Positions 2,139-64,000 of a stretch of 64,000 nt of DNA are shown piece by piece. Origin of the DNA: Tetmemena sp. SeJ-2015. Lineage: Eukaryota > Ciliophora > Spirotrichea > Sporadotrichida > Oxytrichidae. The notes under the pieces are model-generated. The model made no database searches. It worked only from the letters and a program-made list of their open reading frames with translations, and was not told where the DNA came from. The position numbers were made by a program, and so were the translations under genes. The stretch's first letter is position 1. Each line of letters starts with the position of its first letter. The stretch is from the NCBI GenBank assembly GCA_027382625.1, contig JAJKFJ010022304.1:1-64000 (forward strand), given 5' to 3'.

Positions 2139-2146
2139 TATATATC

Positions 2147-2173: not shown

Positions 2174-2177
<4 letters not shown>

Positions 2178-15900: not shown

Positions 15901-16054
15901 GAGAAGGAGCTGCGTATACTCTTGGAAATGGCTCAGTTTAACACTGTCCGCTAACCACCGTTAAAGCTAGTGCCCATAAAATATTTATACTAATCTAAAT
16001 TTAAATCAGAGCAAGAAGTGATTGCATTCTAGTGAAATAAAGGATAATCTTCAT
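9911..16054 (-). CDS. surface-protein gene copy 0 (divergent, segmented)
   Basis: This is the leftmost and most divergent member of the tandem family. The start at 16054 opens a continuous frame with a signal peptide ending in TVVSGQC, a propeller-like repeat (SIVVAGMTNYKQFHSSVQ, then QWPFILKLE) and ALCCGKIQDIQVISRKTTQD. These align with copy 2. Farther left, 11.55-11.62 kb reads ENGGTPFNFYDLI, matching NGGGTPSDTGELYELL of copy 1. About 10.5-10.66 kb encodes a hydrophobic helix (LFLIMLIGLLAYIFISRN), and 9911-10130 a polar tail ending VERMQVYFNLMPKR before TGA at 9913-9911. A 3-kb element interrupts it at 11.93-14.90 kb. Unlike copies 1 and 2 it has no IES after the first codons. Segments downstream of 15.57 kb are assigned by weak similarity and order. 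Confidence 0.55.
12405..12885 (-). CDS. putative ORF of the 3-kb inverted-repeat element
   Basis: Minus-strand, GC-richer than its surroundings. From an ATG near 12885 a frame reads MIALCSLKGNKGLPEYIRYT and continues through a basic stretch. An overlapping second frame (12682-12405) is open throughout with two TAR codons and includes LLRPHSPQGLGFLNILPHLS and LANEVPNLRALKEWATGAQ. It is probably the element's own gene, now frameshifted. I recognise no transposase motif. Confidence 0.4.
13637..14010 (+). repeat. R1 copy nested in the 3-kb element
   Basis: Begins ACTGAGAATTTAATAAA, continues with TCGAACAAGCTACAAATCAG near 13.91 kb and ends near ATCACCGATTTTAATTTAA. It lies between the two long terminal repeats, so it entered the larger element or was carried by it. 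Confidence 0.7.
15570..16054 (-). CDS. copy 0 N-terminal segment (signal peptide + repeat)
   Basis: Continuous frame from ATG at 16054-16052: MKIILYFTRMQ, a hydrophobic core around ILWALALTVV and a cleavage-like SGQC. The first repeat follows with VVAGMTN, PFILKLE and TALCCGKIQDIQ, then QDQVVFSYSDSQAVYYQ. Each element aligns with copy 2 (VVAGMTN, PFILKLD, PALCCGTIKDIQ, QDQIVLSYT). It contains in-frame TAA and TAG read as Gln. Confidence 0.8.
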
Positions 16055-16525
16055 TTCTATAGACATTGGATACTTTACTAAATTCGAATCTTAAATTCAG
16101 AAATCAATTTCCTATTAATTATAGAGTGTCCCGGACCGATAAGTTATAATCCCTATATTAAATCAAAATATTCAAATTCCCATATTGAAAGGCTAATATA
16201 TTACAAAATTAATTTTTATTTTAAAATGAAAAAAAATAAAAATTGGATATAGATTAAATTATAATTCAAAGAGTATTTTTGCTCTGATTTTTTTATTATT
16301 GTGCAATAATAAAAGCAAGATATCACAATTACAATTTAATGGGTTGATTAAAGACTCTATTTCATTTATTATAGAAAATATTTATTGTATATCTTTTTGA
16401 ATTTAAGTAATATAAATGGGGAGATACTTTTTTAAATAAAATTTTTTTTCTCTCCATTCCTTAGAGCATTAAATTTATTTTTAAAAAGTTTCAATTTTTT
16501 AAAAAATTAGAGTGAAATCTCTGTT

Positions 16526-16916
16526 TATAGGTAAAAGCAAATAAGTAAATTGGATCGTGGGTTGAAGAAATAAGATTTCTCTTAATTAAAAGGCTAAAAA
16601 CATCATCTAGAAGAACATTGTCAGACTTTAAAGAAAAACTGGGGAGATTATAATATTATTAAATAGGAAAAGATTAGGCACTAATTAAATAATGGCACTG
16701 GTTTATCACAGATCTCAATAGAGTAATCCAATTAAACATTAGCTTTTTAATTCTATCTCTAAGAATTAAATTAAACACCAATCAATATTATTTTTAATCT
16801 CTATTATCCAATCATTAATCTCTAATCATTAAAGCCTCAATTACATCTAATTAAGAATTGGGGTTTGAACTTATTTTTACAACCCACCATCCAATTCACT
16901 TATTTGATTTTATAAG
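16526..16916. repeat. imperfect inverted repeat, MITE-like
   Basis: AAATAAGTAAATTGGATCGT at about 16538 and its imperfect reverse complement at 16881-16907 (ending ACCCACCATCCAATTCACTT) bracket about 390 bp of AT-rich spacer between copies 0 and 1. No target duplication is clear. Confidence 0.5.
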
Positions 16917-17375: not shown

Positions 17376-20300
17376 TCAAAATCCATGTGTTGTTCTTTGC
17401 GATTTAAGAAATTATTTTTTCTTAATATTCTAAAAAACAAATTAAATTTGAATTTTTGGGGGGGACGGAAGTGCACCTCCCCCCTTTTTATGGTCAAAAT
17501 CGCCCAAAAATCGTCCATTTAGGCCGAAATCGGCCAAAAATGCCAAAAAATTAAGAGTTTTTGGTCTTCTAAATTTCCTTGAGGGTCAAATTTCATGATT
17601 TCAATTTTTCCAAAAATTCATCAAAAATGTTTTAAGTCAAATTTACCATTAAACAATAGTTTTTAATTAATATAGGGCAAATTTAGGCAGATACTTGATA
17701 GTATCAGCAAGATCTAAAATATTTGCTACAGGTCGAGGCTAGGCTATAAGTTAAATCAGCCCTCAGTATTTATAAATATTATAATTATTTGACGTCCTTA
17801 CAGCATAGAGAAATCTTTCCTCGAATTTATTTACTTAAGAAAAATATGGCAAGTTAATTTCAAATTCAAGATAATTTCATCTTTTACAATATTTGGTCTT
17901 ATATTGTGGCTTTAACAAAGAGAAGGGCTCATTTATACTGTTTTATAAAAGATATCATGCTTTATTTTCTATTTTGACAATAGCATTTAAACTTCTTGGA
18001 AATTAATTGCAGAACTTCTCACACCTATTTTTGATAATCATCTTAGGCTCACTATTTTGAAGAAGAATATATATAGAAGTTAAAATGTGACTCAGTCATT
18101 AAAAGGTAATGAAGCCCTAAAAACAAGAAAGTATTCATCAAAATAAGACTTAAAAACAAAAAAATAGAGAATTTTAGGAAAAAATTGAAATCATGAAATT
18201 TGACCCTAAAGGAAATTTAGAAGGCCAAAAACTCTTAATTTTTTGGCATTTTTGGCCGATTTAGGCCTAAATCGACGATTTTTGGGCGATTTTGACAATA
18301 AAAAGGGGGGGTGCACTTCCATCCCCCCCGAATTTTTAATTTATTTAAAAAATATTACATTTATATAAATCTTTATCTATTTAAATGGATAACAATTTCA
18401 ATAAATGTTTTTTTTTATAAGGTATTCATTCGATGTGAAATAATTATTTTATAATTATGAATAAAAAATATTCAATGAATATTATGTTTCTGTTCTTCTT
18501 TAGTCTTTTCAAAAGCACTAAGTAGATCTACTTAGGTTTAATTTGACTCTTTTTACCCTTTTAATGTATGTTGTTAAGCTATTAGTTGAGATAGGTGTCT
18601 TAAAACGTAAAAATATTCTTGCTTTGAATTCATAGCAATTCTCCAATTCTTTTAATGGACTAGTGGTTTAATTTAATTACCAAATTAATATAATTGTGGT
18701 TTGTTTTGTATCTTTGAAGCAAAGTTAAAAGCCATAGAGTTTAAAGTCTTTGCCTCTAACGTATCTGGGTTGGTACTCTTTTGTGGAGCCCCAGTTGATT
18801 CGTCAGCTTCGATAGAATAAAACGACTCTATTGGCAGAGGTTGCATCGCTATCATTTTATTTATTTAATCCGCTTTTTCTTTTTTGTTCTTTCTTTCCTT
18901 GAAGGGTTGACTGTCGCTAAAGATTTAAATAAAAATACTTTGTAAATATTTATAAAATTAAATAAATAAGATTCTGATGAACCTCGTGATGACATTTTGC
19001 CTGTAAAGTTTAAACCTGAAGTAAACTCTTTTGAGATATTCAAACAAATTTCTAAATAGAGTTAAACAAGAAATAATTATTACATTAGCATCTAACTCAT
19101 CAAGATCAGCAAGTTAGTTCCAATTAAAAAGAACAATACTCCGATCACAGACCACCCTGCTTATTCAAAACATATTTAATAATTCAGAATAACTTATATT
19201 TATTATTTTGTAAATAAGTTTGGAAATTGTTGTCTAGGAAATCATTTTGGAAGATGAAGAAGTGGTAAATTATAATGAGAATGCACACTTCGTTAATTTA
19301 TTTATTAAAGATCTCCATCCCATTCATGAACTCACTCTCAAAGGGCCGCACTTAAATTTAATAGATCGTATAAAACAATATATAGTAATAATTAAGAACA
19401 GAAAATTCAAAGGCACTTATTAATACTAAATATCATATATATCTCACTTCCATTATAAATTTAATAAAATATTAGTTTATTTAAATGATGTAGAAGAGGT
19501 AAATAAGTTGTTAGGAAATGAGATATATTAAGTGATAGACTCTTGGACAGTCAGCCAGAAATACAGCAACTGCTGCCAGTGATATTCTTCTAACGAAGAA
19601 TATTCCAATGTAAATTTGAGCGAGGACCTTCCTAACATCAATTCCTTCGTAAAGAGTACCAATCATTCCTTCAACTCTTCTGCTCTTCAATTTAAGAGAA
19701 AAGTGTCGAATTAAGAACAGGCCTCCAATTGGAGCAAAAGAACACAACACCATAAAGAATAATGCCAACAAAGAAGAAACTGAGTCAGTGAAAGTCACAA
19801 ATTGCAACTATGTTTAATAAACTATAAAATAAAACAGGAAATCAGTATGATTATTCATCAATTTTTTATTACAAAAATAATTCTGAATGAAAGTAGAATA
19901 ATTAAATAAATTAAATTTTTTAATTGTTATAAACGCAACGCTCAATTTTTTTATTTTTACCGATTACGAAATTGCTCAACTATATAATCACAACAAAAAG
20001 CTTATTTATCTCCAACTTAAATATAAAAATAAAGTTGCTTATATAATATATGCGAGAATTTAATTGGTTACTAAAATGTAATACAACTTCTCCTTGCTCG
20101 CTGATGTGAACTACCTTAATTTAAACTTAATTATTTTCGTTAATATTTAAAAGAATGTCTGCCGATGACGCCGGCCTCCCCGATCTACAAAAAAAAAACG
20201 CACTTTGCTCAAGCTAGCACGGGAGGTCGACCCAGCCGGTTTGGCCACGGTGACTCCAGCCTACGCAGCGGCACTCACCCGCCCCCCGCCACCAGCCTCC

Positions 20301-23300
20301 AGGTCGCCGGCGACTCGGCCCTTTCACTGACCTTGGGTGAGGTCTCTCGGACTTGCCGAGGTGAGAGCTAAAGATGGCCGAGGATCCTTGGAGCGGCAGC
20401 TCCCTCGCCGGCGACCTGGAGGCTGGTGGCGGGGGGCGGGTGAGTGCCGCTGCGTAGGCTGGAGTCACCGTGGCCAAACCGGCTGGGTCGACCTCCCGTG
20501 CTAGCTTGAGCAAAGTGCGTTTTTTTTTTTAGATCGGGGGGGCCCGGCGTCATCGGCAGAATTCTTTTAAATATTAACGAAAATAATTAAGTTTAAATTA
20601 AGGTAGTTCACATCAGCGAGCAAGGAGAAGTTGTATTACATTTTAGTAACCAATTAAATTCTCGCATATAATGCAGTAATATATCAAATCTACAAAACAT
20701 GCATCTTGGATATTTCAATACCTTGTTTTAACTTATCATAAAACATTTTTTCAGCAAAAAGTTTTTATCTTTTATATTTAAATTTTACTACTATGTATAA
20801 GTTAAAAGACCGAGCAGCATACATTTAAAGAATTGAGGAGAGTAGTGAGAAACATTTCTAAGTAGCCCTCAATAAGGAATTTAATTAAATCTTAACACTC
20901 CATTAAACTTAACTAAATTTAATAAAAATTATAAAGAATTAAGTTTGGTTTAAAGAAGAGAAGAGCGGCCAGTTTTGAATAGATGTATCTCAATCTGAAA
21001 GTATTAAACAGTAATGTGAGTGCTTACATATTTGACCTTGACTTAATTACCCTAATGGTAAGAGCAAATAAAAATACTATTTTTAAGCAATTGGAGTTAG
21101 GACAACAAACACAACAATGTAGAAATCATTTGATCCTAGACTTTGAAGCACAGACTATGACTAATAGCGTAATTGAGTTAAATTTGTGACATGCAGATAG
21201 ATAAGAATCTTAAAAGATATCAAGGTTGTTGAATCTGTCGTTAAAAGGCTGCTCATTTTAAAAGTCAAAGAAAGTGTCAAGGATTTACTGAGAAGGGAAG
21301 AAATCGAAAGTGACTATGTCTATCAATTTCTAAAAAATGTCCTGTGCATTGGTTGGGAAGTTTATATCGAGCAGAGGCATATGGATCACAAACTACAGTG
21401 CATTCAAAAGTCCCCATAAGAATTGAAGCGATGTCGCCCTAAATCATAATGACCAATCGAACTGTCTTACATTATTAAATTACATTCTCATTTATATTTA
21501 AACTTAAACCTATCATAAATTTAATTCTGTGCGAGAATATTGTATTAAAAGCTAATGTATTATATTCTTATTAAATTTAGAAATAATTTTCTACTTATAA
21601 TTCATGATCTATTGTTATGAGGATATATAATAAAAATTTAATCTTTGAGTCTCCAAATATGAAATCTCAAACACTAAATTCAAAGAGAAAACTAAAGTTC
21701 AATGAATTTGATCCCAAGCAGAGCTCTCTTCTAGCTTCACCATCTCCTCGAAACTACATTCCCGACATCAACCTCATTCCTTTTATTGAGAGTCGGCTCC
21801 CTCAATTGAAAACTAAAGCTATAAAAAAGAGAAAGATGTTCAAGATGAGAGTAAGGAATTTGATATCTTATGATTAACAACTCTCTGCGATATTCCTCTG
21901 ATTTGGAACTCTTCATTCCGATACCAATCCATAACTTACTTACCCTGAGGTAGCACATATTCTTGGATTAAGAGTTGGCACGGTCAGCATGATAATTCAT
22001 CGTTGGCGCCGCAACTGCTTCGTTGTAACATAAAACAAGGGCAAGCGAGGGAGGAAGCGTCTCCTAACGGAGGATACAGAGAAAAGGATTACTTCTATGA
22101 AGGCACTATATGAAACTGCTCATCTTAGTCTTGAACAGCGGTGCCACTTTTTGCACCATCAATACGGAATTCCATTGCTATCTACATTTGCACTAAGGAA
22201 GATTTATATTCGCAATGGCGTTAGGTATCGGGCTGCAGGCTACTCTTATCGCAGGAGAGAGGACAAGGAGCAAGAAGCACAGAGTAGATAGCAGGAATTT
22301 TCAAAGCACCTTGTTAGATGGATTCACGAGGGACGCCAAATAGTATACATAGACGAATCATCATTCAACGTCTGGCAATCGCCCAAGAAAATCTGGCTAA
22401 AGGATGGAATGAAAATGCAGATCGCAAGCACACGAGGGAAATCTATCACAGTTATCGGAGCCATCAGTGAAGTAGAAGGCCTTATACTTGCCAAAACAAT
22501 TACTAGCAGTAATAATATCGAACAATTCAAGGCCTTCCTTCTTGAATTAGGCCCTCATCTTTCCAGAGGAAGCATATTACTAATGGATAATCTCTCGATT
22601 CACAAGAGCCTGAAGCTACTTGAAGCCATCCTGAACGGCTGCTACATTGAGTTTTTTTCTACATACAGCTGTGCCCTCAATCCAATCGAGAACTCTGGGC
22701 TTTAATCAAGAAGGAATGGCGTGGCGTGACTGTATCATAGCTACTCAAAGATAACAAAGCAACCCCACCCGAGTACTTATTAAAGGATATAATTAATAGA
22801 CTTAAGAATTAATAAGTTAAGTGAATCGCTCGTTCCCACTATAAGACTTTGATCTCTTCTCTGCGTGGCCATTCTGTTTGAGTCATTCTACTGCCTTGCC
22901 TTTGATTGGGGTTCTTTGTTTAGATTGAAGACTTGTCAACAGTTACTACTGTTGATACTGATATTGATTTGATGCTACTTTCGACTTGCTTGCCTTTCGT
23001 TCCTCCATATCCAATTTCTCTGTTTCAATTTTATTCTCTAAATTGGCGCGTATCTCTTTTAGTCTCATGTATTTGAGCGTTGCCCTACCATTACTGGCAA
23101 AGCTCAACCTTACCTACTTTCCTTTCTTCTGCGATGAGGGCAATCCTTCGAGAAAGTTGGGAGCCAAATCATAGTTCTGTACATCGTATTACTAGCTTTC
23201 CAGCAAGGTGGAACGTAATCCTTTAGAAATATGTCTTCTTTTGGAGAGAGAGTTGAAAGTACAGCCAAAATCCACCTTAAATCAGGAATATGCTGTTTAT

Positions 23301-26300
23301 CAATGCCAAGGTTCTTTCCATTCTTCTCGGCGACAGACTTCAGCTTATTAAGGAGAACACTGACAGTAGGAGGCCTGGGACAAGGCAATAACCTAATTTC
23401 TTTATAATGCGGACACCAAAGAGAGCTTTCGATAACATTCATTATGTATTCTTTACATAGGTTTTAAAAGTACGAAATTTTTAAACTTACTTTTGTGCTG
23501 GTTTTTTTTTAAATTTATTATTTAAATTATTTTCCCAAAATTTTACTTTACTTTACTTTACTACATTATGTATTCTTCAGTAACAACTTTGGACTTGATT
23601 GAAGGCAAGAAGAACTAGTTTCTAACAGCGGCCTCATATAAATCTCTTTTAGAGTTTATGCACTTGGCGAGCTGGTCAACAGTTGACTTAGAATCTGCCA
23701 TTTAACTAATAATATATTATAAGGTGATATATAATAACATCATAAAAATTATCAACATTCCTTTCCTAATTTCAACACTTAAAATTGAATTTAATTAAGT
23801 TATATTAACATTATGGTATTGAGGCTTGCGTTAATTTAATTTTTAAATTTCTATATTTTTAAATTAAAAAAGAGTTAATATTTACCGATTTAAATCGAAT
23901 CTAAAATTGTTTTCAAGTATTGAGGTGTTTTTATATATCAAAATCATACATATATTTAAGAAATTATTTGAAGCAATTTATTATTTATTAGCAGATCATA
24001 AAAATTATTTTTATGACTATTAAATTTAAAACTTATTTTTAATACTAAAATCTCACAGTGAATTGTTATTTTTTAAAGCTCGGTGGCATTTGATGAGCAA
24101 TTTTTAAATACTTTTAACAATAATCAGATATTTTTAAACATATATTAATTTGAAATATTTTTGCTTATTTTAAACCCTACTCCGTAAGAGAGCAGAATTA
24201 CTTTATTTCAGACACATAATTAACATAATATAAGAAATCAATTTAAAATTTTCTTTAGTTTAGTCTAACCAACGCTCCGAGTTATTTTTGTTAGTTTTTC
24301 TGCAAATAAATTTTATATAATAGTTAGGGAATTAAGAACCCCAAACGGGCTTATAATACTTAATCGATTTAAAGTAATTCACAGGCGTAACTCCTTGATC
24401 AGTTGTGCCACGTCACCGCGAAAGCCCACCGTCGCAAATAAATTTAAAAATTAATTGTGTGAGAAAACAAAATAAAACTGAGCAAATCTTTTTACACTTG
24501 CTTTATAAAATTCGGCATGTCTATTCGAATGTCGAGGGTAGCTATCATTTACACAATAGGTCTTAAATGTTTCTTCTTGTATTTTATGATTTAAAAATTG
24601 TCATATTTTATTCTCTGCGGTAATATTTATAATTCAGCAAATATTCTAAATTTTATATTGGTGAGTGATAATGATAAGATTTCTAACGTAGCTCGTGGTT
24701 GAGTCAACTTCATCAGGTATAGTTGCTGTTAGAGTAATCTTTAACTTATAATTTAACTTACTATTTGAAATTTTTTTTGGGGATAATTTAATTTGGTTGT
24801 GTAAAAAATACTCCACTGGGAGGTTTGTTTTTTTGCCATAAAGTAAAAAAATTCATCATTCACAAAAACAAAAAAATTTATTAGAGGAGGAATAATTTTA
24901 TAATTATTCCTAATTTGTTTTAAAATTAAAGACTATTGTATTTTGCAAAAATATCAATAAAGTAGGGGGGAAAATTATCCTCATCTCGAGGAAATTTCAA
25001 TAGTCAAACCCAATACGGAAAGGGAAAATATATTTCTTTTTGGGAAAAAAGAACGAGTTTATTATAAAAATATGGGAGAAAAAAGGGAAAAGTTTTAAAT
25101 TTACCTTTAATTGTTAGAGTGTCTGGATCTGACCAATTTTAACCCTTTGGGACCAACATTCTCCTGGACTGAAAATTGACGATCTTGAATTTTTAGTAAA
25201 CATAGTTTTCATCTTCATCTCCAGAGAGTGCTAAAATATATTTATGCCAAAGTACGAATATCCTTAGAAACCTTTTTAACTGCGAAAGTCAGAGCCACAT
25301 TGTTCAAAGCAGAGTAAGAAGCTGGAACTTATTTTTATTTTTAAAACAGCGATAAAAAATAAATATCCTTCCCAAACTCAACAGTTACTCTCCCAAACAT
25401 GTCTATTCTAAATAATATCTTAATAGAGAAATTAGTAAAATTATTAAGGCAAATATTTGAAAATTATTATGTAATTCTTGATATCCAAGGCTTGAATTTA
25501 GGATCATAAGCTTATTATTATTTAAATATTAAAATTAAAAGTTATAACGTCTCTATATTCCTTCTTAATTAAGCTTGGAGCTATATGTTGAATTTAGCAG
25601 GCGATTGCTTGAGTCTAATAATAGAGACCTATTCAAAAGAAGTTTAGTTTTGGTAGTTCTTCAGAAAGTGATGATAAAATTTAAATAATTGGCGGTTAGA
25701 AGTGATGTGAACTAAATTCATAAGTGAAAAAAATATCCCCAAGATTTACTCAATTTGGCTGGATAAGCTTCTTTCGAAACATTTCTACTCTGCATTTTCT
25801 TTCTTTAATTTTAAAAGAGGTCACTATCTACATATATTTAAGGCTAAATTTTTTTTTTTTTAATAATAATAATAATTTAAAATAAAAAATAATTAAAAAA
25901 TAAAATTTTAAAATTTTTTAAAATTAAATCCCTTTCCCATAAATTACTTAATCCGAAAATAATTAAACTAATTTTTATAAATTTCCCCCAAGGGACCTAT
26001 TTTAATTAAAATTTTTTTTTTTCAAAAAAGGGGATTAAATTTTTTAAAATTTTTTAATTTTTTAAATATTGTATTTGTGAAGCATCTCTTATGATGAGTT
26101 TCATAAATCGGCTGCTCAAGGCAAAAGCAAAGTTACTGAGAATGATGTTTTAAAAGTCTTCAAGTTATTACTCTGTGATCTTCAAGTCAATTATTTGATA
26201 AATTTGGTCAACCACTGTTTCATTCAGAGTTCCCAAGTACGTCAATCCCTAAGAAGCACTGATTCAATTAAATTAGTTTTATTCACATTTACATACTTGA

Positions 26301-41880: not shown

Positions 41881-41884
41881 TTAT

Positions 41885-43015: not shown

Positions 43016-43019
43016 AAAT

Positions 43020-52000: not shown

Positions 52001-55000
52001 TAAAATAAAGATTTATCAATTGTTCAATCTCATTTTCAGTCAACTAATTTTTAATTATTTTTCCTCGAGTTTAAAGATAGAAATAAGTGAATCAATTAAA
52101 AAACTCTTTTTCATTTTAAGCCTGGAAATATTTTTTTCGTTTTAAAAATGATTTTAATTATAAAATCTTGGAATCCTAAAATTTCTCTCACTTAGGTTAG
52201 GTAATAAGTGTCTGCTTGTTTAGCAAGATAAATTAAAAATAATAATTAATTTACAATTTAAGTATAATCTGATTCATTAACCTTTGGCGCTCATGCCTTC
52301 TATAACATCTTTTCACTGAATAAAATAGCAGTATAAGCCATATTTATTAAGAAAAAGAATAGTAAATTAAAGAAAGAAAATACAAATTATCTTTCACAAA
52401 TCAAATTGATTCAAATATATTTTGGTGGATTTTAAGTCATTATTTAATTTATAAGAGTTGGTTTTATAGTAAACTTAGTCTTATCAGCATCCATTGTCAT
52501 ATCAATTATAATTTATAAGAATTATTTTTATATAATTTAAATATTATTAACTCCTTTTAAATTATTAATTTATTTAAAGTCATAAACTTTGGAAGTCCAT
52601 TAGTTACAGTTGCATTTGTATTGCTTTTATAAAAAAAGTAATTAGTTTATTTAAATAAATCCATATGAAAATCTTGATTAATCAAATTATATATCTAAAT
52701 AAATGATATTTATCAAAGCTCATATAAATTTATTTAATTTTAAAGCCAAATCTTTGATTAAAAGCATAAAAATAATTAAATTTTTATTTTACCACAATTT
52801 ATTCTTTATTAATTTTTAAAATATTGAATATTTTTTAATGAATAAACTGATTTAAAGAATAATTGAAGTGTAACTCATAGAAACTATTGTAGGGGTACCA
52901 CATTTTGATGTCAAGGGGCCAAAAATTATGTCCGTAAATTATGATATGTAAACAGTGGTTGTCTGATTCTATGAAACTTAGTCACTGATTTATAAGTTAT
53001 TCACTTATAAAAATAGGATATTTAATTATAGTAGGCGCATCTTTTAATTTTTATTGTTTATATTTTGAAAAATAAAAAATATCATATATCTAATGAGCAT
53101 TTATTAATTATGATTAATGGAAATTTACAAATCTTATTCTAAATTTTATCCATAAAAATTAAATTTTCAGTAAAATTGGATGCAATAATTAATTTTACTC
53201 AATTATATTAACTTAATAAAATATGGAGTGTATGATGTTAATTTAAAGTAAGTTAAATGTTTTAAAAATAATTTAGAATAAAAGGGATAATTAATTTTCA
53301 ATTATTATTTGAAATATTTTATTATTTATTGCACCAACTAGTGTCATGCATTTTTGGATCTCCTCCTAAATCAACTGTAGAGACAGTGGGCTTAAAAACA
53401 TCTATGTGAGAACAATAGTTTCCTGAAATTGCATCCGCATTCGATGCAGGCGCAGCGCAAGGATAGTAATAAATATATATTTCTTAGTTTAAGGAGCCTC
53501 TTTAATGAATATGATTTTAAATACTTTTGATTAATTTTGGCAATAAATTTTTACAAAAATAAAAATATCTAGCTTCATCTCTATGCAAGCTAAAGTAAAA
53601 TAATTATCTTGTACACTTTTTAAAATTCTATTAGTTTATGAATTAAATAAGAGTAATGAATATAAATATCCTAATAATATGGTTGGATATTTAAAATTGA
53701 GAAGATTTATATATATAGTAATCATATCCTTTTCATTTAAGTGTATTTGAGATAAAAATTTGAAATTATGAGATTCGTATATAATTTATAGTCGAATTGG
53801 CCATCTATGTATTGATCTACAGAATAAGTATAATATATATTTTTTAATCAGTAATTTGAAGAAGATTCATCATCTCTGGATTTAAAGTTGCTATATCAAA
53901 TCCAGATTCTAGATTATACGTAGAAATCTCTATAATTAAATAATCATGAAAGCTTTCATTCCACTACCACTAAAAGCTGCATTTCCTCCGGCGAAAGAAT
54001 ACTTAGAAGAGGCAAACAAATATTACTTAAACCCATCTATTTTTCTTATATAAAAAATGATTTTATTTATTTTATTTAAAATCTATGTATTATAATTATA
54101 AATACTTTTAAAAGTCACTAATAAACAATATAAGGGAATTAAGCTTTCTCTTTGAGAACCTTTAGATTATTATTTGTAAGTTTGGTAATTATATTTCTTA
54201 TATGATAATATCGTAAGTTATTATATAATTTTAATTTAAGAATAAGCTTTGCTGTCTGCTGGAACATAAATGGGCCTTTGAGCAATAGTTACTGGACTCA
54301 AAAGGATATTTTGCTAAGAAATATTCATAAATTAGTTATTAATCACCTACTAAGTTGTCTATGATTATTTTATGAGAGCACATCGATGTTAAAGATAAAC
54401 TTTAATACATAATTTATATTCAAGAAATTATAGGAGCAAAATATATATATAAAATTTTTCAATAATTTAATTCTTTAAATGTATGATTGTTTGCCATCAG
54501 TTTAATTTTAGAAATAAATTAATTTAATTTTTGATGTTAAAGACTACAAGACGAAGTATAGTGGGATTGGTGAAATCCTAAGATGTCATGTAAAGTTTAT
54601 AAGAGCCAGCATAGAACAAATCTAAGCACTCCCCTATTCAAACAATTTTTATTAACGCTAATTTAATTTAATATGAAATTAATAAGTAGAAAACAAATTT
54701 ATCTCATATTTAAAGAAAAAATCTGAAAATATTTTATAAACAATTTATAATGGCTATATTTAATTAAGTATAAGTTAATCTAGAATGGAAAATTGAGATA
54801 TTGATTCTCTTTATCGAGCCCATAAATTGAGTTATATTTTAATTCTTATTTTAAATATAATGAGTTTGCTATGAAAATTGTGAATACTTCATGTCTTCAG
54901 GAGTAAATTAACATTATTCCATCTGTTATTTCGATTGAAATCGAAAAATAATTCTCAAGTATTCTTTCTTTATTTTTTTATCAATAACATTCTACAGTGA

Positions 55001-58000
55001 TAAATTATATATCCACTCTTTGTTCTCCTCATTTCCTACTTTTAAACTTATGCAACTATAATTTAAGGTGAGTAACTATGAATTTTCGATTAATATTTTA
55101 ATCAAGAAAGAATTACTTTAGATACATTAAGCTACTTCTGGTTACATCCATTTTATTTCGTGCAAATACTGAAATATTTAAAAGCATTTTTTCATTAAAT
55201 CTTACTTTCTTAATTATAAAGTAGTTCGTGAAATCTCTTGACTAATTATTTCTGAACTATAATACCTTTTTTATTATTTCAATTTAAAGACTCAGTTGAC
55301 TAAGTTAAATTATTAAATAAAATATGGGTCAAGATTAAAGACTATGAGCGAATTTAATTGCGAGGAAAAATTAATTCATGATGAGTACATTTTATTTCAA
55401 CTAGATAAACTAATTCCTCTTTAACATTATATTAGCTATGCTTAAATTAGCTTCTACTTTAAATTATATTTGTATTTTAATTTGATCCGTTATGGACTTC
55501 AATATAATTCCATTAAATGTCCAAAAATTAATTAATTTGTAAAATAATCATTTGCTTGATGAGTGCTTTGGTTTATATAAAATAATTTTTATCATATTAA
55601 AAATTTTCCTCTTTATAATTTGGATAGCTCTTTTATAAATACGGGATTTGATTTATGACATGGAGTATGCTTTCTTATACTTGAGAGTTGGAGGACTGGT
55701 AGCAAAATTAGAGAGCCAAAATATTTGCCTTTGCTAAATTAGACCCCCTGTGCAAGCAAATAGTTCCCTAGAGGAGCCAGAGAGATAAGTAGTAACTCGC
55801 TAGAAATAGTAACTGCCCATAGTACTTCCAGTTGTAGCTGTAAATAGCCTACTCCAAAGTTTCATTTAAATAATTTTAAAAAAATAAAAGTTATTTTGAT
55901 CAAGTTTTGGAATTTTTAGTGTAGGAGATTTAACCTAATCAAAATATAAATCGACTAAAGCTTGCTAGAGATTGAATGCTACAAATTAATTTTACAAATA
56001 AAAGTCTATAAAAATTATAAAACTAGAAGATAATTTAAAAAATTCATTTGGAAATACCAACATAAACACAGTTAAAATAATAGATTTGATCTTAAATTAT
56101 AATATAGATCGATCACTTATTAAAATTTAAGATGAGAGTTCTTCTATAACTTTATTCATTTTGTCCGCAATAAAAAAGGAGAATGTAATAATTCTTCTGA
56201 TTATAATTCTATTATTCTTAGTTTTTTTTGGCTCTTCTTAATTTTGAACATAAAATCTCTAACTGTTGTAATTTAAGAAATTATCAAATATAAGAATTAT
56301 TTATTTAGCAAACTGCTAATGTTTGAGGGGGGTTAATTTTCTTCACAAATTTAAATGCATTAATTTAACCTTCACAGTTTATAATTTATATTTATGCTAT
56401 ATAAATTAAAATTTAGACTACGAATCCAGGCTAATAAGTATTTGTTCCACCTGGACTCCTCCACCTCCTTTTTTATTTAATTAACAATCTAATATTTTGA
56501 TAGATTTATTTCGTTTTAATTGAATAATATATCTAATTTTGACATATTATTTTTAATTTTATAATGATTGCTTAGAAAATGAATGAAACAGATTAATAAG
56601 AAAAATATTTATAGACTTATTTATAGCCTTACTTTTAAAACATTCTACAAAATTATTAATTATTTTTAAAACCTTATGAAATTGGGAAGCATCCTCCAGC
56701 TAACATTACAAAATTTTAGTTTCCAAATGGATCATAACTTAGAGAACTTAAAATTTTAATAAGAATTTAACGAAAATAAGATTTTCTTTTTAATTTACTA
56801 AAATATGTCAAAGTTTGACTATATTTGATCAAGTTTAATAATGATCCAATATTTTACTTTTTCTAAAATGCTAAAAGTATTTTCTTCATAAGTCTGAATA
56901 TAATAATTGCATTTTCTCTCTTATAGAATTATTTTAATAAACACATAACTATCTTTGTTGCTGTATTTGAGAATATAGTTTGCGAATTATAATCTATATA
57001 TTTAGTTATTTTAGCTTTCCTTTAAATTATATAAATTAATTTTTAAGAATATTTTAATAATGAAGATTAAATGAATTTTAGTTCCTATAAAATATAAAGG
57101 ATATATTTATTTGTGAGAGAATAAAGCTTCATCATCCTATTCCATTTGGTGAGGCCCATTTCTTGAACTGGGATTCCACTGTTATTTTATATGTTTGTTT
57201 AGCCTAGTCGATATAACTAATATCTAATCTGAATTTGTGGGGAGGTTGAAGAGCGAAATAAATGTAAGAGGTTAGTTCACTCCCAGAGTAAAGGCGATCA
57301 ATTGACTAGCCTGAAGAGTATCAGGACCCGTGTAAAATTTGGCCCACTTAATTATTATAACAGAATTATCAAATAGAAAGAGAAATTGAATTTATATAAT
57401 TAATCTTTCCTAATAAAGAAAAAACGAGTTATTAAAATTATTCTCATTTATATTCAACTTTTATCAGTTTTTATTTAAACCATTGTCTTATAGCAAAATA
57501 ACTCAGCTTATTGTGCAGGAAAGAAAATACCCAGAATAAAAATAAAATCTAACAGCAGTTGAAAAAATGAAAATTAGTAAATACTAAATTTAATAAAGGA
57601 TATTTTTTTAAAAAAAACTATGACGATATCCACCCCTAAATGCTTTGTAAAACTTTTGTAAAAAAGGCAAAATATTTTATCTATTATTTTATTTTAAGAT
57701 TCTGAGACCACTAGAGTTGAATTATTTTTATTTGAAACAGAAAAAATGAAAAGGTACTTAAAATTTTACAAAACTAATTAGAATACCTAATTTTATCGCC
57801 CTTTTAAACTAGGTAAAATTGAATAGTTTAATTAAAAATAATTTTTCCAATTAAATTATTCAAAATAAAGACTTTATTAAAATAAATTTTAAGTGGCCAA
57901 AAAAATTTTAATTTTATTATATTAAGGGGTATAAATTTTATTAAATCAATCTCCTTTGCTAGAATTTAATAATATCTCATGGATTACAAGGTATTCAAAG

Positions 58001-59326
58001 TTCGAAAAGAAAAAATATTTAAAAAATGTAAAAGAAAAGATTTTAGCAAGAAAAAGATAATTATCTTCTCTTAGTTAAATTCTAAATTTCAACTAATGAG
58101 AAATGATATTTAAAATTAAAAGATTAAGAATTCCTTATATCTAATAAGATAATTTGACATTACTAACAAAAATAAAGGAAAAATCTTATCAAAATCTTAA
58201 TTAGTTTTAAATTTCTCTGAAGAAATATTTAAATGAATAAAAGTTAAATTTAAATTTAAAAAGTAAATTAAATATCAATATAATATTTTTATTAAAGAAT
58301 AGTAGACAGACTGAGTATCAATTAAAACCCAAAGATATAAAAAGTAAGGATAAGTAGTGAATAATTATTTTTTAATTAATAAATATAATCATGCTAAATT
58401 TTAACTTTTTACATGCAATCTAAAGACTGTGACCTTGACATCTGTCTCATATCTTCTGAATTTTATACCTGGTTCCTCCATATCAGATAACTGAGTGTTA
58501 GGTTTCATATGTTGCTTGATTATTGTTTCTCACTTTATCAAAGGTTCTGATACCTTTTGTCTCTCTTGCAATGTATTCATTTTGACCATAGTAGTATTTA
58601 TAAGAATAAAATAAATAAATCACTTAATCTTTAAATGATAAAAATTTCTAATCGTATTTAGAGTTTGAGTGTAAGAAAGTACGATTTGGTCTTGGGAGGC
58701 ATTTCTGTCGATAAACTAAATATCTTTGATGGTTCCGCAACAGAGAGCAGGTCTTATGGCTTATGAGAGAGAGACATCGGCGTTCTGTTAATCTAATTTA
58801 AGAATGAAAGGCCACATTTCATTAGTAAGGACCTTAGGGTGTAGCTGCTTGTTATTTGTCATTCCTGCAACCACAAAGTATCCATCCTTTGACTGAGCCG
58901 AAGTTGTTATCATAAAGTCATCTGGAGTCGAAGGAAGATATACTTTTGGAAAGGGCTGAGGGGCGCAATCTCCGTTAGCACCCCTCAAAGTAAGGACACA
59001 CAAAATTAAATATGTTTTAAGTTTATTAATCAGACCAAGCAGAATTTTGGTGTCTTTACACATAAAGATTATTAATTACACTTCTCAAAATCTATAGATT
59101 TAGAATGAAATTTAAATAATTTCATATAAGTATAATGATTATTGTTTATTTAGTAGTAAAATAAATATTCTTATAAACTTAATGATATTTTTTATTTAGC
59201 AGACACAAAATTTCATTTCATTCCACTAAAGTTTGAGAAATAGTTAAAAATAAAAATCTTTGATTTATCATATAAAAGAGGTCAAAGATTTCTAAATTTA
59301 AATTATTTTATAAAGATGGTGTTCAT
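43020..59326 (-). CDS. surface-protein gene copy 2, IES-interrupted
   Basis: The most informative copy. It starts at ATG 59326-59324 and has the same block order as copy 1: signal peptide and repeat (59.07-58.65), repeats (58.6-55.7), cadherin-like ectodomain (54.6-50.6), Thr stalk (50.02-49.80), juxtamembrane (49.5-46.1), TM domain (45.99-45.35), tail (44.95-43.03). The N-terminal half is clean apart from an extra T near 58480. The C-terminal part (44.2-44.95 kb) has many small indels in homopolymers, and the final segment has lost two bases, so the conserved THGF-stop is out of frame. That damage may be sequence error, since copies 1 and 3 are intact there. Likely a glycosylated cell-surface protein; ligand unknown. 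Confidence 0.8.
43079..43610. other. C-terminal IES, copy 2 (pointer AATAT), with R1 inside
   Basis: AATAT at 43074-43078 and 43606-43610. Excision of 532 bp joins AFEKLQKKEKNI to KKKQFLKSQRT in frame. The excess over the 173-bp IES of copy 3 equals the R1 copy at 43229-43596. Confidence 0.82.
43229..43596 (+). repeat. degenerate R1 copy
   Basis: AGGTGAGAATTAACTGAAAATT at the left and ...ATCGAACAA near 43.48 kb identify it. The right part is corrupted by homopolymers. Confidence 0.65.
43611..44945 (-). CDS. copy 2 C-terminal TM and tail (damaged)
   Basis: Matches 18.48-19.81 kb of copy 1. The blocks IAMQPLPIESFYSVEADEST and the SSRGSSESYLF region are recognisable. 44.64-44.95 kb aligns to the 98-codon segment of copies 1 and 3 but lacks many single bases (for example in the TTGGAGCAAAAGAAC and ACACCATAAAG regions), so no frame survives. 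Confidence 0.7.
45350..45985 (-). CDS. copy 2 TM domain segments
   Basis: 45985-45730 reads SLQFLWGLLNAL, HMPLLDINFPTNAQDIFQKL, FDFFPSQQILDTFFDF, FNDRFNNLDIF. 45720-45500 reads SVLQSLGSNDFYIVVFVVLT, then after a 22-bp IES ALTIRVIKARSNM. 45430-45350 gives the IEGYLEMFLTTLLNS block. Nearly identical to copy 1. Confidence 0.85.
45596..45617. other. 22-bp IES, copy 2 (pointer AGCAATT)
   Basis: AGCAATT at 45589-45595 and 45611-45617. Excision restores VVLTPIA-LTIRVIKARS. Confidence 0.92.
46090..47100 (-). CDS. copy 2 membrane-proximal segments
   Basis: Matches 23.76-24.90 kb of copy 1. Includes CIVNDERILYGKRHKPPSGV (about 47.08-47.00 kb), NTLTATIPDEVDQTTSYVRN (about 46.97-46.89) and the ASLNTIMLIQLN region near 46.17. 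Junctions not resolved. Confidence 0.55.
47106..47639. repeat. 206-bp-arm hairpin carrying a coding-like segment
   Basis: Arms 47106-47311 and 47434-47639 are reverse complements with only three mismatches; the loop is 122 bp. Each arm contains, read outward-in, an AT-rich leader and then ATG followed by MDEKSTFRDTKYIIELLK, ENL(S/P)HSLPPSTCKFS in GC-richer codons. It is inserted in copy 2 between segments where copy 1 (near 24.90 kb) has none. Either a foldback element or a captured gene end duplicated head-to-head. Transcribed, it would form a long dsRNA. Confidence 0.88.
47830..48025 (-). CDS. copy 2 Cys-containing segment
   Basis: Reads CFEQCGSDLRSQKGFQGYSY, GINIFQHSLEMKMK, then SSIFSPGECWSRLLGQTQTL. 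Almost identical to 25.13-25.31 kb in copy 1. Because few substitutions exist, the frame choice rests on the conserved Cys pattern and is not certain. Confidence 0.5.
48271..48664 (-). repeat. R1 copy in copy 2
   Basis: Reverse orientation; core CTTGTTCGATG...CTTCTTTAATCATCTTCG and the right end TAAAATTCTTAGTATAATTG. The left end is homopolymer-corrupted. Absent from copy 1 at this site. Confidence 0.75.
48672..49515 (-). CDS. copy 2 ectodomain end and juxtamembrane helices
   Basis: 49515-49275 matches the PVVVSLIDLYDPSRRT region of copy 1. 49165-48965 reads LNETVVDQIYQIIDLKITEQ-like sequence. 48850-48672 reads NCLKKGALQSQIEQNFGIFF and HHFLRNYKNQTSFE. Same order as 26.63-25.62 kb. Confidence 0.7.
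49804..50020 (-). CDS. copy 2 Thr-rich stalk
   Basis: About 35 Thr-dominated residues (TTTTTTTRTTTKTTTTT-like, then TTPAPTTKIITTT), followed by QAPRTSAATLPPDQRPHF and FTMVFGTFGSYY identical to copy 1. The Val-rich plus-strand frame here is the antisense shadow. Confidence 0.8.
50030..50560. other. IES DNA, no gene seen
   Basis: AT-rich sequence between the Thr stalk and the 50.57-50.91 kb segment. It does not match the corresponding copy 1 interval, which holds an R1 copy. Confidence 0.4.
50916..51501. mobile_element. 586-bp TA-flanked inverted-repeat element
   Basis: Left end GGTTGAATACGAATTCTTCA after TA (50914-50915); right end is the complement, TTCTTATTCAACC, followed by TA (51502-51503). 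Arms of about 40 bp are related to the element at 32030. Contains an (AG)n tract near 51166 and no supported gene. Absent from copy 1 at this site (near 28.16 kb). Confidence 0.82.
52160..53470 (-). CDS. copy 2 cadherin-like ectodomain segments
   Basis: Collinear with copy 1 at 28.84-29.92 kb: ASNADAISGNYCSHIDVF and TVDLGGDPKMHDTSWC (53470-53335), NQTTTVYISQFTDIIFGPLT and SKCGTPTIVSMSYTSIIL (53045-52840), NATVTNGLPKFMTLN (52632-52570), MDADKTKFTIKPTLI (52500-52435), LAKQADTYYLTQVREILGFQ (52235-52160). Changes between copies are mainly synonymous or conservative, so the protein sequence has been under selection. Confidence 0.8.
53009..53029. other. 21-bp IES, copy 2 (pointer TTAT)
   Basis: TTAT at 53005-53008 and 53026-53029. 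Excision gives MRLLQVNNLQISDQ in frame, as the 22-bp IES does in copy 1. Confidence 0.85.
53471..53785. other. IES, copy 2 (pointer TAAT)
   Basis: TAAT at 53467-53470 and 53782-53785. Excision joins QMANSTI to NYYPCAAPAS in frame. Confidence 0.86.
53782..54645 (-). CDS. copy 2 ectodomain segments with mapped IESs
   Basis: 54645-54535 IGECLDLFYAGSYKLYMTSQ and FTNPTILRLVVFN. 54312-54241 NILLSPVTIAQRPIYVPADS. 54022-53942 LFASSKYSFAGGNAAFSGSG. 53928-53782 ISTYNLESGFDIATLNPEMM and LQINTQMANS. Spliced at the pointers AATA, AATC and TAAT these give one frame into the next segment. Confidence 0.87.
53925..53941. other. 17-bp IES, copy 2 (pointer AATC)
   Basis: AATC at 53925-53928 and 53942-53945. 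Excision gives KAFM-ISTYNLESG. One of the shortest IESs here. Confidence 0.93.
54023..54244. other. IES, copy 2 (pointer AATA)
   Basis: AATA at 54019-54022 and 54241-54244. Excision gives DSKAY-LFASSKYS in frame. Confidence 0.87.
54660..55655. other. long IES, no gene seen
   Basis: About 1 kb of AT-rich DNA between coding segments of copy 2. It corresponds to the interval holding the 1.06-kb element in copy 1; apart from that element the two are of similar length but little conserved. Confidence 0.5.
55665..55985 (-). CDS. copy 2 propeller-like repeat segment
   Basis: VAFNLQQALVDLYFDQVKSP, TATTGSTMGSYYFQRVTTYL, SGSSRELFACTGGLIQQRQ, FWLSNFATSPPTLKYKKAY. Continuous in one frame with three TAG codons read as Gln. 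Partner of 33.11-33.43 kb. Confidence 0.85.
56432..56743 (-). CDS. copy 2 two short segments
   Basis: 56743-56674 reads SLSYDPFGNQNFVMLAGG; 56470-56432 is Gly-rich (GGGG, then GTNTY after an indel). Between them about 0.2 kb of AT-rich IES DNA, where copy 1 has the 1.4-kb palindrome. Confidence 0.6.
57131..57350 (-). CDS. copy 2 repeat segment (KWAKFYTGPD)
   Basis: 73 codons open in the ciliate code: KWAKFYTGPDTLQASQLIAF, TLGVNQPLTFISLFNLPTNS, ILVISTRLNKHIKQQWNPS, RNGPHQMEQDDE. It has five in-frame TAA/TAG codons, so in the standard code it would be shredded. Homologous to 38.79-39.00 kb. Confidence 0.85.
57360..58290. other. IES DNA, no gene seen
   Basis: AT-rich, unconserved with copy 1 (39.0-40.0 kb). 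Confidence 0.5.
58295..58610 (-). CDS. copy 2 repeat segments after the N-terminus
   Basis: 58600-58420 reads YGQNEYIARETKGIRTFDKV, NNNQATYETQ, then after an extra T (near 58480) SDMEEPGIKFRRYETDVKVT. Copy 1 reads NNQASYETQRSVSMIEKS and KETEFKVT without the frameshift. 58355-58295 gives DTQSVYYS, conserved in copy 1. Confidence 0.65.
58640..59069 (-). CDS. copy 2 N-terminal segment: signal peptide and first repeat
   Basis: MCKDTKILLGLINKLKTYLI then LCVLTLRGANGDC (hydrophobic core and likely cleavage before DC). Then YLPSTPDDFMITTSAQSKDG, YFVVAGMTNNKQLHPKV, WPFILKLDQQNADVSLSQAI, ALCCGTIKDIQFIDRNASQD, QIVLSYT. DGYFVVAGMTN...FILKLD is the repeat typical of ciliate propeller-like surface proteins. 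The first ATG here (59063) is internal; the true start lies upstream of the IES at 59070-59317. Confidence 0.87.
59070..59317. other. first IES, copy 2 (8-bp pointer ATAAAGAT)
   Basis: ATAAAGAT at 59062-59069 and 59310-59317. Excision of 248 bp joins ATG AAC ACC ATC TTT AT to G TGT AAA GAC: MNTIFMCKDTKILL. Longest pointer found here. Confidence 0.93.
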
Positions 59327-59435: not shown

Positions 59436-59639
59436 ATTCGTAGTCAGAGTTATAATTATTCTATGCCTTTGATTTTCTATTTAACTTAAATCTAAGCAAA
59501 CGTAAAATAACTTTTTATGTAATTATACAAATTAGAAAATAAAATGAAAAAATTTAATTTATAAAAGATTTTAATTAAAAAAAAGCAGAATAATTTTAAA
59601 TTAATAATTGTTTTGATTATAACTTTTGTAACTATAATG

Positions 59640-60714: not shown

Positions 60715-63700
60715 TCAAAATCCATGTGGTGATCTTTCTGATTTAAGACATTGTTTTTTATTAATATAAGCAAATTAAAATTTAGCTTATATTAATTAAA
60801 GATTATAAAAGAAATATTTGATAAAATATTAGTTACTAAAAAGTGTAATTCATATGAATTTCTCTTTTATTAAGTATTCATTATTGGACTTGAAATTATT
60901 CTTATTTTAAAATTATTTATAAAATCTATTCGATGAATATTATGTTTCTGTTCTTCTATAGTCTTTTCAAAAGCGCTTAGTAGATCTAACTTAGGATTTT
61001 ATAAATGGCTTTTTTTGCCCTTTTAATGTATGTTGTTAAGCTATTAGTTGAGATAGTTCTCTAAATAAATAAAAAATATACCCTTGCTTTGAATTCATAG
61101 CAATTCTCCAATTCTTTTAATGGACTAGTGGTTTGTTTAAAATAATGATCCAAATTAATTGAAAAGGTTTTATTGGCGTTCTTGTAGCAAAATTAAAGGC
61201 ATAGAGTTTAAAGACTTTGCCTCTAACGTATCTGGGTTGGTATTCTTTTGTGGAGCCCCAGTTGATTCTTCAGCTTCAACAGAATAAAAGGAATCTTGTG
61301 GAAGAGGCTGCATCGCTATCATTTTATTTATTTAGTCATTTTTATCTTTTTATATTTTGTTCTTTCGTAGCTTAAAGAGTTGACTATCACTAAAGATAAA
61401 AATTAAATTTATTAGCAATATAGTAAGAATTTTAATTAAAATCTGTGATTGGTTAAAATAATAAATGGAGAGTTGCAACTTATAGTGCATGATCGAATAC
61501 AATGAAGGGTTAATCTTATTCAATTAAACTTTAATTCTACAAATTTATGATAATGGAGCCTAATACAACTTGAACTTTGAGAAAAATAATGCGATCAGTT
61601 CCAGAGCTCTCTACTTACTTCGCCATTGAAAGGTTGCTTTATTTCAGATTTGATATATTTTCTTAGATCCAGGGAAGGATGACTCAATTAAGACTTAAGC
61701 CATTGGGAAGAGAAAGCCTTGCAGTTGAGAAAACTCATGGGATATCTTAAGAGCATCAACCACCGATTTAGAACTGACCATCATATGCTTATCGAAGAGT
61801 CATATATCTCGCAGTGATGGACAATTGAGTAGGCACAGCCAAATTAATAGTTCAGAATTGGGTCAGCAACTACCTCAATAGTCAGATTTAAAAAAAGCAA
61901 GAAACAAAAGAACCTACTTCAGACAGCAGATACTGAGATGAACAACTACTACACCGCTATTTCAATTAGTCAGCAAATATATTCAAAGCTTGTATCTGAA
62001 TTATTCACTTCCACCATTGTATTCTATCATGCACTCTTATTGTCAGTTAAAATCATTTATTCACCCCCTGGTCTGTAGCTTGTTCGATAGCTTATCAAAA
62101 ATTAATATGAGTTTCTTCTTTAATCATCTCAGCAACACCTCATTGAATCGAGATATGACTCACACACTCTTCATCATCCACTTCATCATCATCGTCTGAA
62201 AATGTGTCAGTTGTAACTTTAACTAGTATCCCACGCAAAAGTTGCAAGGATAAAAAGTTCTTAGAATTTGATGCTGAATCAAATGGTTTATAAATTATTC
62301 AAATTGGACACACTTCAACAGTCACGATTTTATTCCATTTTAATTTAATATCTAATTTAATTATTTTTTTATTAAATTCTAGGTTATACTATGTAAGCGT
62401 TTCAAAATTAATGAGTATTATTATAAAATAGGAATTAAATAAGATTTTGATGAACTTGCTTATGACATTTTGTCTGTAAAGTTTAAACCTGAAGTAAACC
62501 CTTTTCATATAATCAAAAAGATTTCTAAATACAGTTAAGGCATGAGAAAAAATTATTACATAAGCATCATACTCATCAAGATTAGCAAGTTAGTTCCAAT
62601 CAAAAAGAATAATATTCCGATCACTGACCACCCTGCTTATTCAAAACATATTTAATAATTCAGTATAACTTCTATTTATTAATTTGTAAATAAGTTTTGA
62701 AATTGTTGTCTAGGAAATCATTTTGGAAGATGAAGAAGTGGTAAATTATAATGAGAATGCACACTTCGTTAATTTTATTTTTAAAGATCTCCATCCCATT
62801 CATGAATTCACTCTAAAATGGCTACACTTAAATTAAATTCGCCATATTTAAATAATAAATTTTTAAAAGCAAGAATTTTAATCAATTTTTAAATTAATAA
62901 ACTTAAAAATGACTTTACAAATATTATTTTAAAGCAAAGTCTAATTTGAAATTTATTTTTCAAATTTTAAAAAAATAGACAATTATTTTGTTCTGAGAAT
63001 ATTTAAATGATGTAGAAAAGGTAAATAATCTGTTAGGAAATGAGGTACATTAAGTGATAGACTCTTGGACAATCAGCTAGAAATACTGCAACTGCTGCCA
63101 GTGAAATTCTTCTAACGAAAAATATTCCAATGTAAATTTGAGCGAGCACCTTCCTAACATCAATTCCTTCGTAGAGAGTGCCAATCATTCCTTCAATTCT
63201 TCTGCTTTTCAATTTACGAGAAAAGTGTCTAATTAAGAACAGGCCTCCAATTGGAGCAAAAGAACACAACACCATAAAGAATAATGCCAACAAAGAAGAA
63301 ACTGAGTCAGTGAAAGTCACAAATTGCAACTATGTTTAAATAAATTATGTAGGAAATCTCGTATAACAATTTCTTTTTTAAACAGATCAACTATCTTATT
63401 ACAAAGAATACTAATTTACCATATACAATTATTATCACACAAGATTGGTTCTCTTAAACTTAATGATAAAAAAATAAGTTTTCTTACCTCCATGCAGTAA
63501 TATAAAATCTACTAATTCTGTATCTTGAATATTTCAATGGCTCGAGTTTATTTTTCTTATTGCAAATTTATAAAATTCATTTTTTAGAGCAAAAAACAGT
63601 ATTAATTTGATCAAGTATTTTAATTCAATATTTAAATTCTTTACTATGTATAAGTTAAAAACATGAGTAAAATACATTGAAAGAATTGAGGAGAGTAGTG

Positions 63701-64000
63701 AGAAACATTTCCAAGTAGCCCTCAATGAGGAATTTAATTTAATCTTAACACTCCATTAAACTTAACTAATTTTAATTGGGACTTTAAGAAAGTAATCTAA
63801 GTTTAAAGAAGAGAAGAGCGGCCAGTTTTGAATAGATGTATCTCAATCTGAAAATATTGAACAGTAATGAGAGTGCTTACATATTTGATCTTGACTTTAT
63901 TATCCTAATGGTAAGAGCAAATAAAAAAATACTATTTTTAAGCAATTGGAGTTAACACAACAAACACAACAATGTAGAAATCATTTGATCCTAGACTTTA
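60715..64000 (-). CDS. surface-protein gene copy 3, C-terminal part (cut by window edge)
   Basis: Only the TM domain and tail are in the window; the rest lies beyond 64000. Segments: 64000-63830 (LGSNDFYI region, 25-bp IES, ALTIRIIKSRSNM and RLRYIYSKLAALLFF), 63740-63660 (IEGYLEMFLTTLLNS), 63329-63033 (98-codon TM segment), 62.63-62.45 (last helix and tail), 61.33-60.94 (QPLPQ.. and SAFEKTIEEQKHNI), ending after an IES with NKKQCLKSERSPHGF and TGA at 60717-60715. The sequence is clean, so this copy is probably functional. Confidence 0.8.
60768..60940. other. 173-bp C-terminal IES, copy 3 (pointer AATAT)
   Basis: AATAT at 60763-60767 and 60936-60940. Excision joins QKHNI to NKKQCLKSERSPHGF-stop. 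This is the empty version of the IES that carries insertions in copies 1 and 2. Confidence 0.88.
61420..62390 (-). repeat. R1 copy split by a nested element
   Basis: 61420-61483 (AAATCTGTGATTGGTTAAAA...GAGAGTTGCAACTTAT) and 62041-62390 (GTCAGTTAAAATCATTTATT...TAGGTTATA) are the two parts of one R1 copy. Confidence 0.85.
61484..62035. mobile_element. 552-bp element with 5-bp TSD nested in R1
   Basis: Inverted ends AGTGCATGATCGAATACAAT (left) and its near-complement ending ATCATGCACT (right), flanked by CTTAT at 61479-61483 and 62036-62040. The interior is GC-richer and the plus strand from about 61690 is open (LQLRKLMGYLKSINHRFRTD; after one UGA, FRIGSATTSIVRFKKSKKQK and MNNYYTAISISQQIYSKLVS). 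It may be the element's gene or cargo; no family recognised. Confidence 0.82.
63033..63329 (-). CDS. copy 3 C-terminal TM segment
   Basis: Same 98-codon block as 19511-19807 with few substitutions (for example RHFSRKLKSRRIEG against RHFSLKLKSRRVEG). Helices SSLLALFFMVLCSFAPIGGL and FFVRRISLAAVAVFL flank the GTLYEGIDVRKV loop. Confidence 0.87.
   Translation of the reverse strand: MQFVTFTDSVSSLLALFFMVLCSFAPIGGLFLIRHFSRKLKSRRIEGMIGTLYEGIDVRKVLAQIYIGIFFVRRISLAAVAVFLADCPRVYHLMYLIS
63660..64000 (-). CDS. copy 3 TM domain segments, cut at edge
   Basis: 64000-63830: SNDFYIVVFV, then across the IES ALTIRIIKSRSNM, ALSLLFNIFRLRYIYSKLAA. 63740-63660: FLIEGYLEMFLTTLLNSL. The listed 63-codon frame starting MRATWKCFS in this stretch is a shadow. 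Confidence 0.82.
63921..63945. other. 25-bp IES, copy 3 (pointer AGCAA)
   Basis: AGCAA at 63916-63920 and 63941-63945. Excision restores TPIA-LTIRIIKS, as in copies 1 (23 bp) and 2 (22 bp). Confidence 0.9.

Follow-up and report, generated by a model that had tools for sequence, protein, structure and literature searches.

Tandem gene copies, very probably split by internal eliminated sequences, in a contig of probable spirotrich-type ciliate origin

The first 64 kb of contig JAJKFJ010022304.1 (99,119 bases in total; this whole 64-kb stretch is called the window below), part of an assembly of 146 Mb in 5213 contigs, very probably represent micronuclear DNA of a spirotrich-type ciliate, in which a tandem gene family is cut by internal eliminated sequences (IESs), most of them flanked by short direct repeats, or pointers, and carries one GT-AG intron. 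The gene copies are segmented, removal of the segments restores a single frame, paralogues agree on the resulting joints or are empty at the same places, and most of the junctions tested lack GT-AG borders. Loci built of IESs, pointers and macronuclear-destined segments (MDSs) have long been recognised, from the 1980s and 1990s onwards.

Results

Frame-restoring junctions in paralogous copies

Comparison of the window with itself revealed long tandem units that are alike, and protein and DNA blocks showed them to be minus-strand copies of one long gene family; all gene, IES and intron coordinates below refer to that strand. Copy 2 (18400..41763, start codon at 41763) and copy 3 (43600..59326, start codon at 59326) were delimited by the protein and DNA blocks that they have in common, their far ends being approximate. 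Copy 1 (1..16054, extent approximate) has its N-terminal block at 15638-16054 and runs towards the window start, and a fourth copy, which begins beyond the window, is represented by its C-terminal part (60849..64000), the contig going on to 99119. Conserved blocks translate well with TAA and TAG taken as glutamine codons (genetic code 6). Family members in the assembly read through TAA and TAG, and of their match rows 5 of 32 and 12 of 60 contain TGA. Loci of the assembly, cited below by number (L), were read from 8 of 19, 8 of 21, 12 of 32, 30 of 60 and 1 of 1 matches. They are 59 in all, 2.1-3.4 kb in length, and many overlap or lie inside the window.

Twelve junctions between in-frame anchors were examined in copies 2 and 3, giving 24 unspliced readings, of which 19 were out of frame or met a TGA. 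A repeat-bounded join was accepted at 8 junctions, one junction was assigned to a GT-AG intron, and 3 were left unsettled. The frame was restored by removal of a segment and one repeat at 8 of the 12 junctions, and also at the start codon in three copies.

The accepted joins, given as copy 2 followed by copy 3, remove 20 bp (38838..38857, repeat TAAAC) and 16 bp (57184..57199, AACA); 41 bp (33303..33343, AACTT) and 45 bp (55863..55907, AAACTT); 231 bp (30554..30784, TTTAG) and 198 bp (54026..54223, TAATA); 19 bp (30450..30468, GATTT) and 17 bp (53929..53945, GATT); 391 bp (29919..30309, CTATTA) and 325 bp (53468..53792, ACTAT); 196 bp (29585..29780, AAAT by score, with GCAA as a second possibility found by hand) and 275 bp (53057..53331, CAATAAA); 22 bp (29540..29561, TATAATT) and 21 bp (53010..53030, TATAA); and 69 bp (29175..29243, TTATGAC) and 83 bp (52502..52584, TATGAC). 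The 231/198 bp pair was chosen despite being the second-ranked solution in both copies, because it keeps the conserved codons. A preliminary description of this DNA had named the 19/17 bp pair (at 30445 and 53925) and the 22/21 bp pair (at 29539 and 53009). Both were recovered, the former joining KAFMI to STYNLE in the two copies and the latter MRLLQ to [L/V]N[I/N]LQISDQ. It had further proposed a site with 23, 22 and 25 bp at 21068, 45596 and 63921, which we found again in three window copies: in the membrane-stretch block of copy 2 (21068..21090, 23 bp), in copy 3 (45594..45615, 22 bp) and in the fourth copy (63921..63945, 25 bp). In the alignment of 8 loci made for this site (L005 and L007 were excluded, being in the wrong orientation), segments of 26 bp (L004), 17 bp (L006) and 17 bp (L008), measured by hand, lie at the same codon elsewhere in the assembly. 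The number of sites had been put at about nine; the four sets given with coordinates or lengths, including the start codon treated below, were all retrieved, and no individual pairing was possible for the remainder. Segment lengths that differ between paralogues, another of its observations, recur at further sites (20/16, 41/45 and 69/83 bp).

Agreement at the start codon

The start codon offers a case in which three copies can be compared. Removal of 434 bp in copy 2 (41322..41755, repeat CATCTTTA) and of 248 bp in copy 3 (59070..59317, repeat ATCTTTAT), the lengths first noticed in the preliminary description, makes both copies begin with MNTIF..KDTKILL. The start is conserved in L018 (contig C2340), where 383 bp have to be removed and the first residues are identical to those of copies 2 and 3. 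The longest repeat is 8 bp in both window copies. Copy 2 has one more candidate with an 8-bp repeat (428 bp), which gives another peptide. Of 200 simulated pairs of upstream sequences, none combined identical first five residues with repeats of at least 5 bp; an 8-bp repeat was present in both members of 4 pairs.

Empty sites in paralogues

Paralogues that lack an insertion fix its borders by homology. This test of empty sites, made on the assembled sequence, is the strongest that we have and is independent of the repeats. At the junction between IPKL and WSR, L030 and L031 (contig C2340) are uninterrupted, at the place where copies 2 and 3 carry the 41 and 45 bp segments. When the breakpoints were fitted to L030, copies 2 and 3 landed on AACTT and AAACTT, the repeats predicted beforehand. 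L019 and L020 also appeared, by eye, to be uninterrupted at the point of the 20/16 bp segments, and to carry a separate insert, which lies a few tens of bases upstream of it.

Two further points lie in the N-terminal block. At the first, 8 of 12 loci read uninterrupted and three are occupied, by 403 bp (L025), 405 bp (L026) and 392 bp (L027); L028 has 555 bp near this point, with an 11-bp repeat. At the second, 8 loci are uninterrupted and three are occupied, by 617 bp in L023 (repeat T), 1371 bp in L024 (ACT) and 1064 bp in L028 (ACT); in L022, which is copy 2, the corresponding stretch was not found. These N-terminal events are not all independent, because L025 to L027 are close relatives, and L024 and L028 have the same repeat. 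Taken over all breakpoints fixed by homology, the pointers are AACTT, AAACTT, TAATGATTTCA, ACT, ACT, T or TA (the three close relatives), T, and none (L032). Overall, a direct repeat appears to lie at the exact junction, with exceptions.

L030 and L031 (at 1739 on the plus and 14447 on the minus strand of C2340) are nearly identical block copies in opposite orientation, either an inverted duplication or a misassembly.

One junction is best read as an intron

Copies 2 and 3 agree on an in-frame GT-AG solution at 2 of the 12 junctions, and one of these solutions is credible. It removes 35 nt in copy 2 (30870..30904) and 33 nt in copy 3 (54314..54346), both of the form GT...TAG, and L032 has borders identical to these. 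The repeat-only search proposes an alternative at this junction (CAA, 38 bp, and CTTAG, 36 bp). The GT-AG solution was preferred because both copies yield it with matching peptides, so that an ordinary short intron is the best reading for at least one of the gene's frame-restoring segments. At the second junction the GT-AG pair (273/240 nt) was rejected, as it would delete conserved codons.

Repeat controls and points against elimination

As a control for the repeats, the right-hand flanks were exchanged between junctions, and the longest in-frame repeat was scored in these mismatched pairs. Pointer length was rejected as a stand-alone proof, since single-copy repeats are no longer than those of the controls; short repeats come easily in DNA as AT-rich as this. 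The case is built on the agreement between paralogues and the empty sites, and not on the repeats alone. Base composition separates the compared segments (5-20% GC) from the coding blocks (27-43%), and does so alone: sequence identity in gapped alignment was 0.787 for segments and 0.830 for coding blocks, pooled, with no separation.

Several results weigh against a gene family cut by pointer-flanked IESs. Five of the 24 unspliced readings were open and in frame, and three of the 12 junctions were unsettled (M8>M8b, M11>M12 and M16>M17). In single copies the mean longest in-frame repeat was 5.67, compared to 5.35 in the control (p=0.19), and even when two paralogues had to agree, repeats were weakly above control (p=0.038 for the sum, p=0.008 for the shorter repeat). 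At homology-fixed breakpoints, L032, which is occupied by 39 bp, has no strict repeat, only AACT beside a mismatch; the fit at L025 to L027 leaves T or TA, and the repeat of L023 is a single T. Finally, single-base breaks interrupt the frame of copy 2 in the N-terminal block (41041-41222), and this copy is without the following piece (NADVSLSQAIRP..) that is present in copies 1 and 3. Because of these two defects copy 2 may be decaying; alternatively, the missing piece may be located elsewhere.

The top-ranked join at M16>M17 (TACAA, 143/271 bp) would remove a stretch conserved between the copies, and was set aside.

Telomere-like arrays and position among ciliates

A pattern search of the assembly gave 21 matches to G4T4 arrays on 3 contigs, and no C4A2 array. 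Reversal of the G4T4 pattern (28 matches) only shifts the phase of the tandem repeat, and so gives no negative control. Judged by the G4T4 arrays, the genetic code and the variety of repeats, the organism is probably a spirotrich other than Euplotes. Long irregular G4T4 arrays that look telomere-like are found in L012 (contig C2828, about 3860-4156).

Other features of the window and related loci

The GC content varies between 22 and 37% across the window, in 2-kb steps. No open reading frame of at least 150 aa by table 11, no tRNA by ARAGORN and no Rfam match at gathering score were found in the window. Neither the N-terminal block nor the 33088-33312 block nor the joined peptide matched a Pfam family. 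The C-terminal blocks may resemble a multi-pass membrane tail of ciliate proteins. The block at 20747-21500 is also open on the plus strand, a reading that we dropped because the minus strand encodes a membrane stretch, DFYIVVFVVLTPIA, which recurs in L005 to L008.

An insertion of about 2.1 kb (around 21.6-23.7 kb) is present in copy 2 and absent from copy 3. Its plus-strand frame 21902-22729 (275 residues, code 6) matches the DDE transposase PF13358 (E 5e-16); when this transposase was used in a protein database search, 2 of 376 candidates passed, neither of them named. Around 20047-20670, in copy 2 only among the aligned copies, a long, almost perfect palindrome whose core is GC-rich is either a hairpin element or an assembly or amplification artefact. 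Three pairs of inverted repeats (35169-36587, 11943-14846 and 47106-47639), with arms of 206-316 bp that are 98-99% complementary, may be young mobile elements of the hairpin type. A dispersed repeat, about 400 bp long, occurs in both orientations, at 2749-3178, 13740-14026, 27290-27711, 37040-37473, 48264-48663 and 62041-62392.

Outside the window, L034, L038, L042 and L048 (contig C4324) have scores equal to those of copy 2 at several blocks, for which reason C4324 may be an alternative haplotype or a duplicate of copy 2. L059 (contig C2882, from 10796) is the sole match to the conserved start of small-subunit rRNA. It seems, by eye, to leave ordinary rRNA after roughly the first hundred bases, and has no Rfam match at gathering score; it is possibly a decayed or rearranged germline rRNA copy.

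Discussion

The preliminary description had taken this DNA for an IES-like ciliate germline locus, and this stands as the best reading: TAA and TAG serve as glutamine codons, the segments are very AT-rich and mostly without GT-AG borders, and empty sites in paralogues match the predicted joints. It had also held that GT-AG borders are not the rule, which applies to most of the 12 junctions but not to the one now read as an intron, and that pointers measure 4-8 bp, where repeats are indeed present but range from 1 to 11 bp.

In such a locus, AT-rich IESs of 16 bp to more than 1 kb would split the gene copies into MDSs, and most of the IESs would be bracketed by a short pointer repeat present in two copies. 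In the developing somatic nucleus, each IES would leave the DNA with one copy of its repeat, restoring a single frame, and the GT-AG intron would leave the RNA later. Across paralogues an IES would keep its place while its length and repeat change, some paralogues being empty or having an IES elsewhere. The assignment of removal to the DNA, and its timing, are borrowed from the known behaviour of such loci. The alternative, in which somatic DNA keeps the segments and a repeat-guided splicing without GT-AG borders takes them out of the RNA, acting on pieces down to 16 nt beside a normal GT-AG intron, seems to us highly unlikely.

Ordinary splicing can also be considered, with the segments as very short spliceosomal introns removed from RNA. 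The junction with GT-AG borders in both copies implies that short introns do exist in this gene, and introns, too, would account for AT-rich inserts that stay at fixed places and vary in length; in known ciliates introns and IESs are both AT-rich, and an exchange between the two has been proposed as possible for spirotrichs, in the relevant part of PMC1805493. The other junctions nevertheless make this explanation very unlikely, since 10 of the 12 have no GT-AG solution agreeing in two copies, one of the remaining two would cost conserved codons, none of the eight junctions accepted as repeat-bounded is read as GT-AG, and the 21068 site offers, by eye, no GT-AG option in its three window copies. 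That the apparent repeats and the restored frame are due to chance and to assembly indels in decaying copies is highly unlikely. The non-significant control on single copies, the frame breaks of copy 2 and the frequency of repeats in such AT-rich DNA would all fit such an origin, but none of the 200 simulations reproduces the way in which three copies agree at the start codon, empty-site paralogues coincide with the predicted joint, and random junctions in the window have a mean repeat of 0.90 bp, with at least 5 bp in 1.5% of them.

Pointer-flanked IESs could also belong to one of the TA-bounded systems. Paramecium IESs resemble those proposed here in being precise, frame-restoring, many per gene, and gained or lost between paralogues; they differ in having TA at both ends and, essentially, in never being shorter than 26 bp, according to the portions of PMC3464196 used here. 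The Tec elements and TA-bounded IESs of Euplotes, itself a spirotrich, are likewise removed precisely, and Euplotes reads UGA as cysteine, as stated in part of PMC9797194. The sole repeat T or TA in L025 to L027 would agree with either system. Against both, the repeats of many junctions are not TA (AACTT, CATCTTTA and TAATGATTTCA among them), segments of 16-25 bp fall below the Paramecium limit, and it is TAA and TAG, not UGA, that are reassigned, to glutamine. A TA-bounded origin is highly unlikely; the preliminary description, too, had preferred spirotrichs to strictly TA-bounded systems.

The closest parallels are spirotrichs with varied pointers, namely Oxytricha trifallax, Tetmemena, Halteria and Stylonychia. 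They too have AT-rich segments between short and varied repeats, IES positions shared by paralogues, pointers that differ at a conserved position, and some IESs below 26-27 nt, as far as the sections drawn upon go (PMC9797194, PMC10901763, PMC2394655). The same sections describe pointers down to 2 bp and positions that are kept while pointer sequences change, and they place the IESs below 26-27 nt in Stylonychia and Oxytricha. The IESs of Oxytricha have a median length of 73 bp, and conserved IESs are mostly shared between paralogues within one species, as reported in excerpts of PMC9797194, PMC10901763, PMC1805493, PMC3464196 and PMC2394655. Our observations fall within the described behaviour of spirotrich IESs, and the type of system is already known.

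What the locus adds is the number of comparisons that it permits. Among gene copies of one genome, the same coding point can be vacant or can carry 16 to more than 1000 bp, with different repeats; thanks to these many paralogous copies, the gain, loss and drift of putatively eliminated DNA would be readable without a somatic genome. The probable GT-AG intron in the same gene would provide a built-in comparison between removal at the RNA level and removal at the DNA level. The locus is a new, unusually readable example, and not a new principle.

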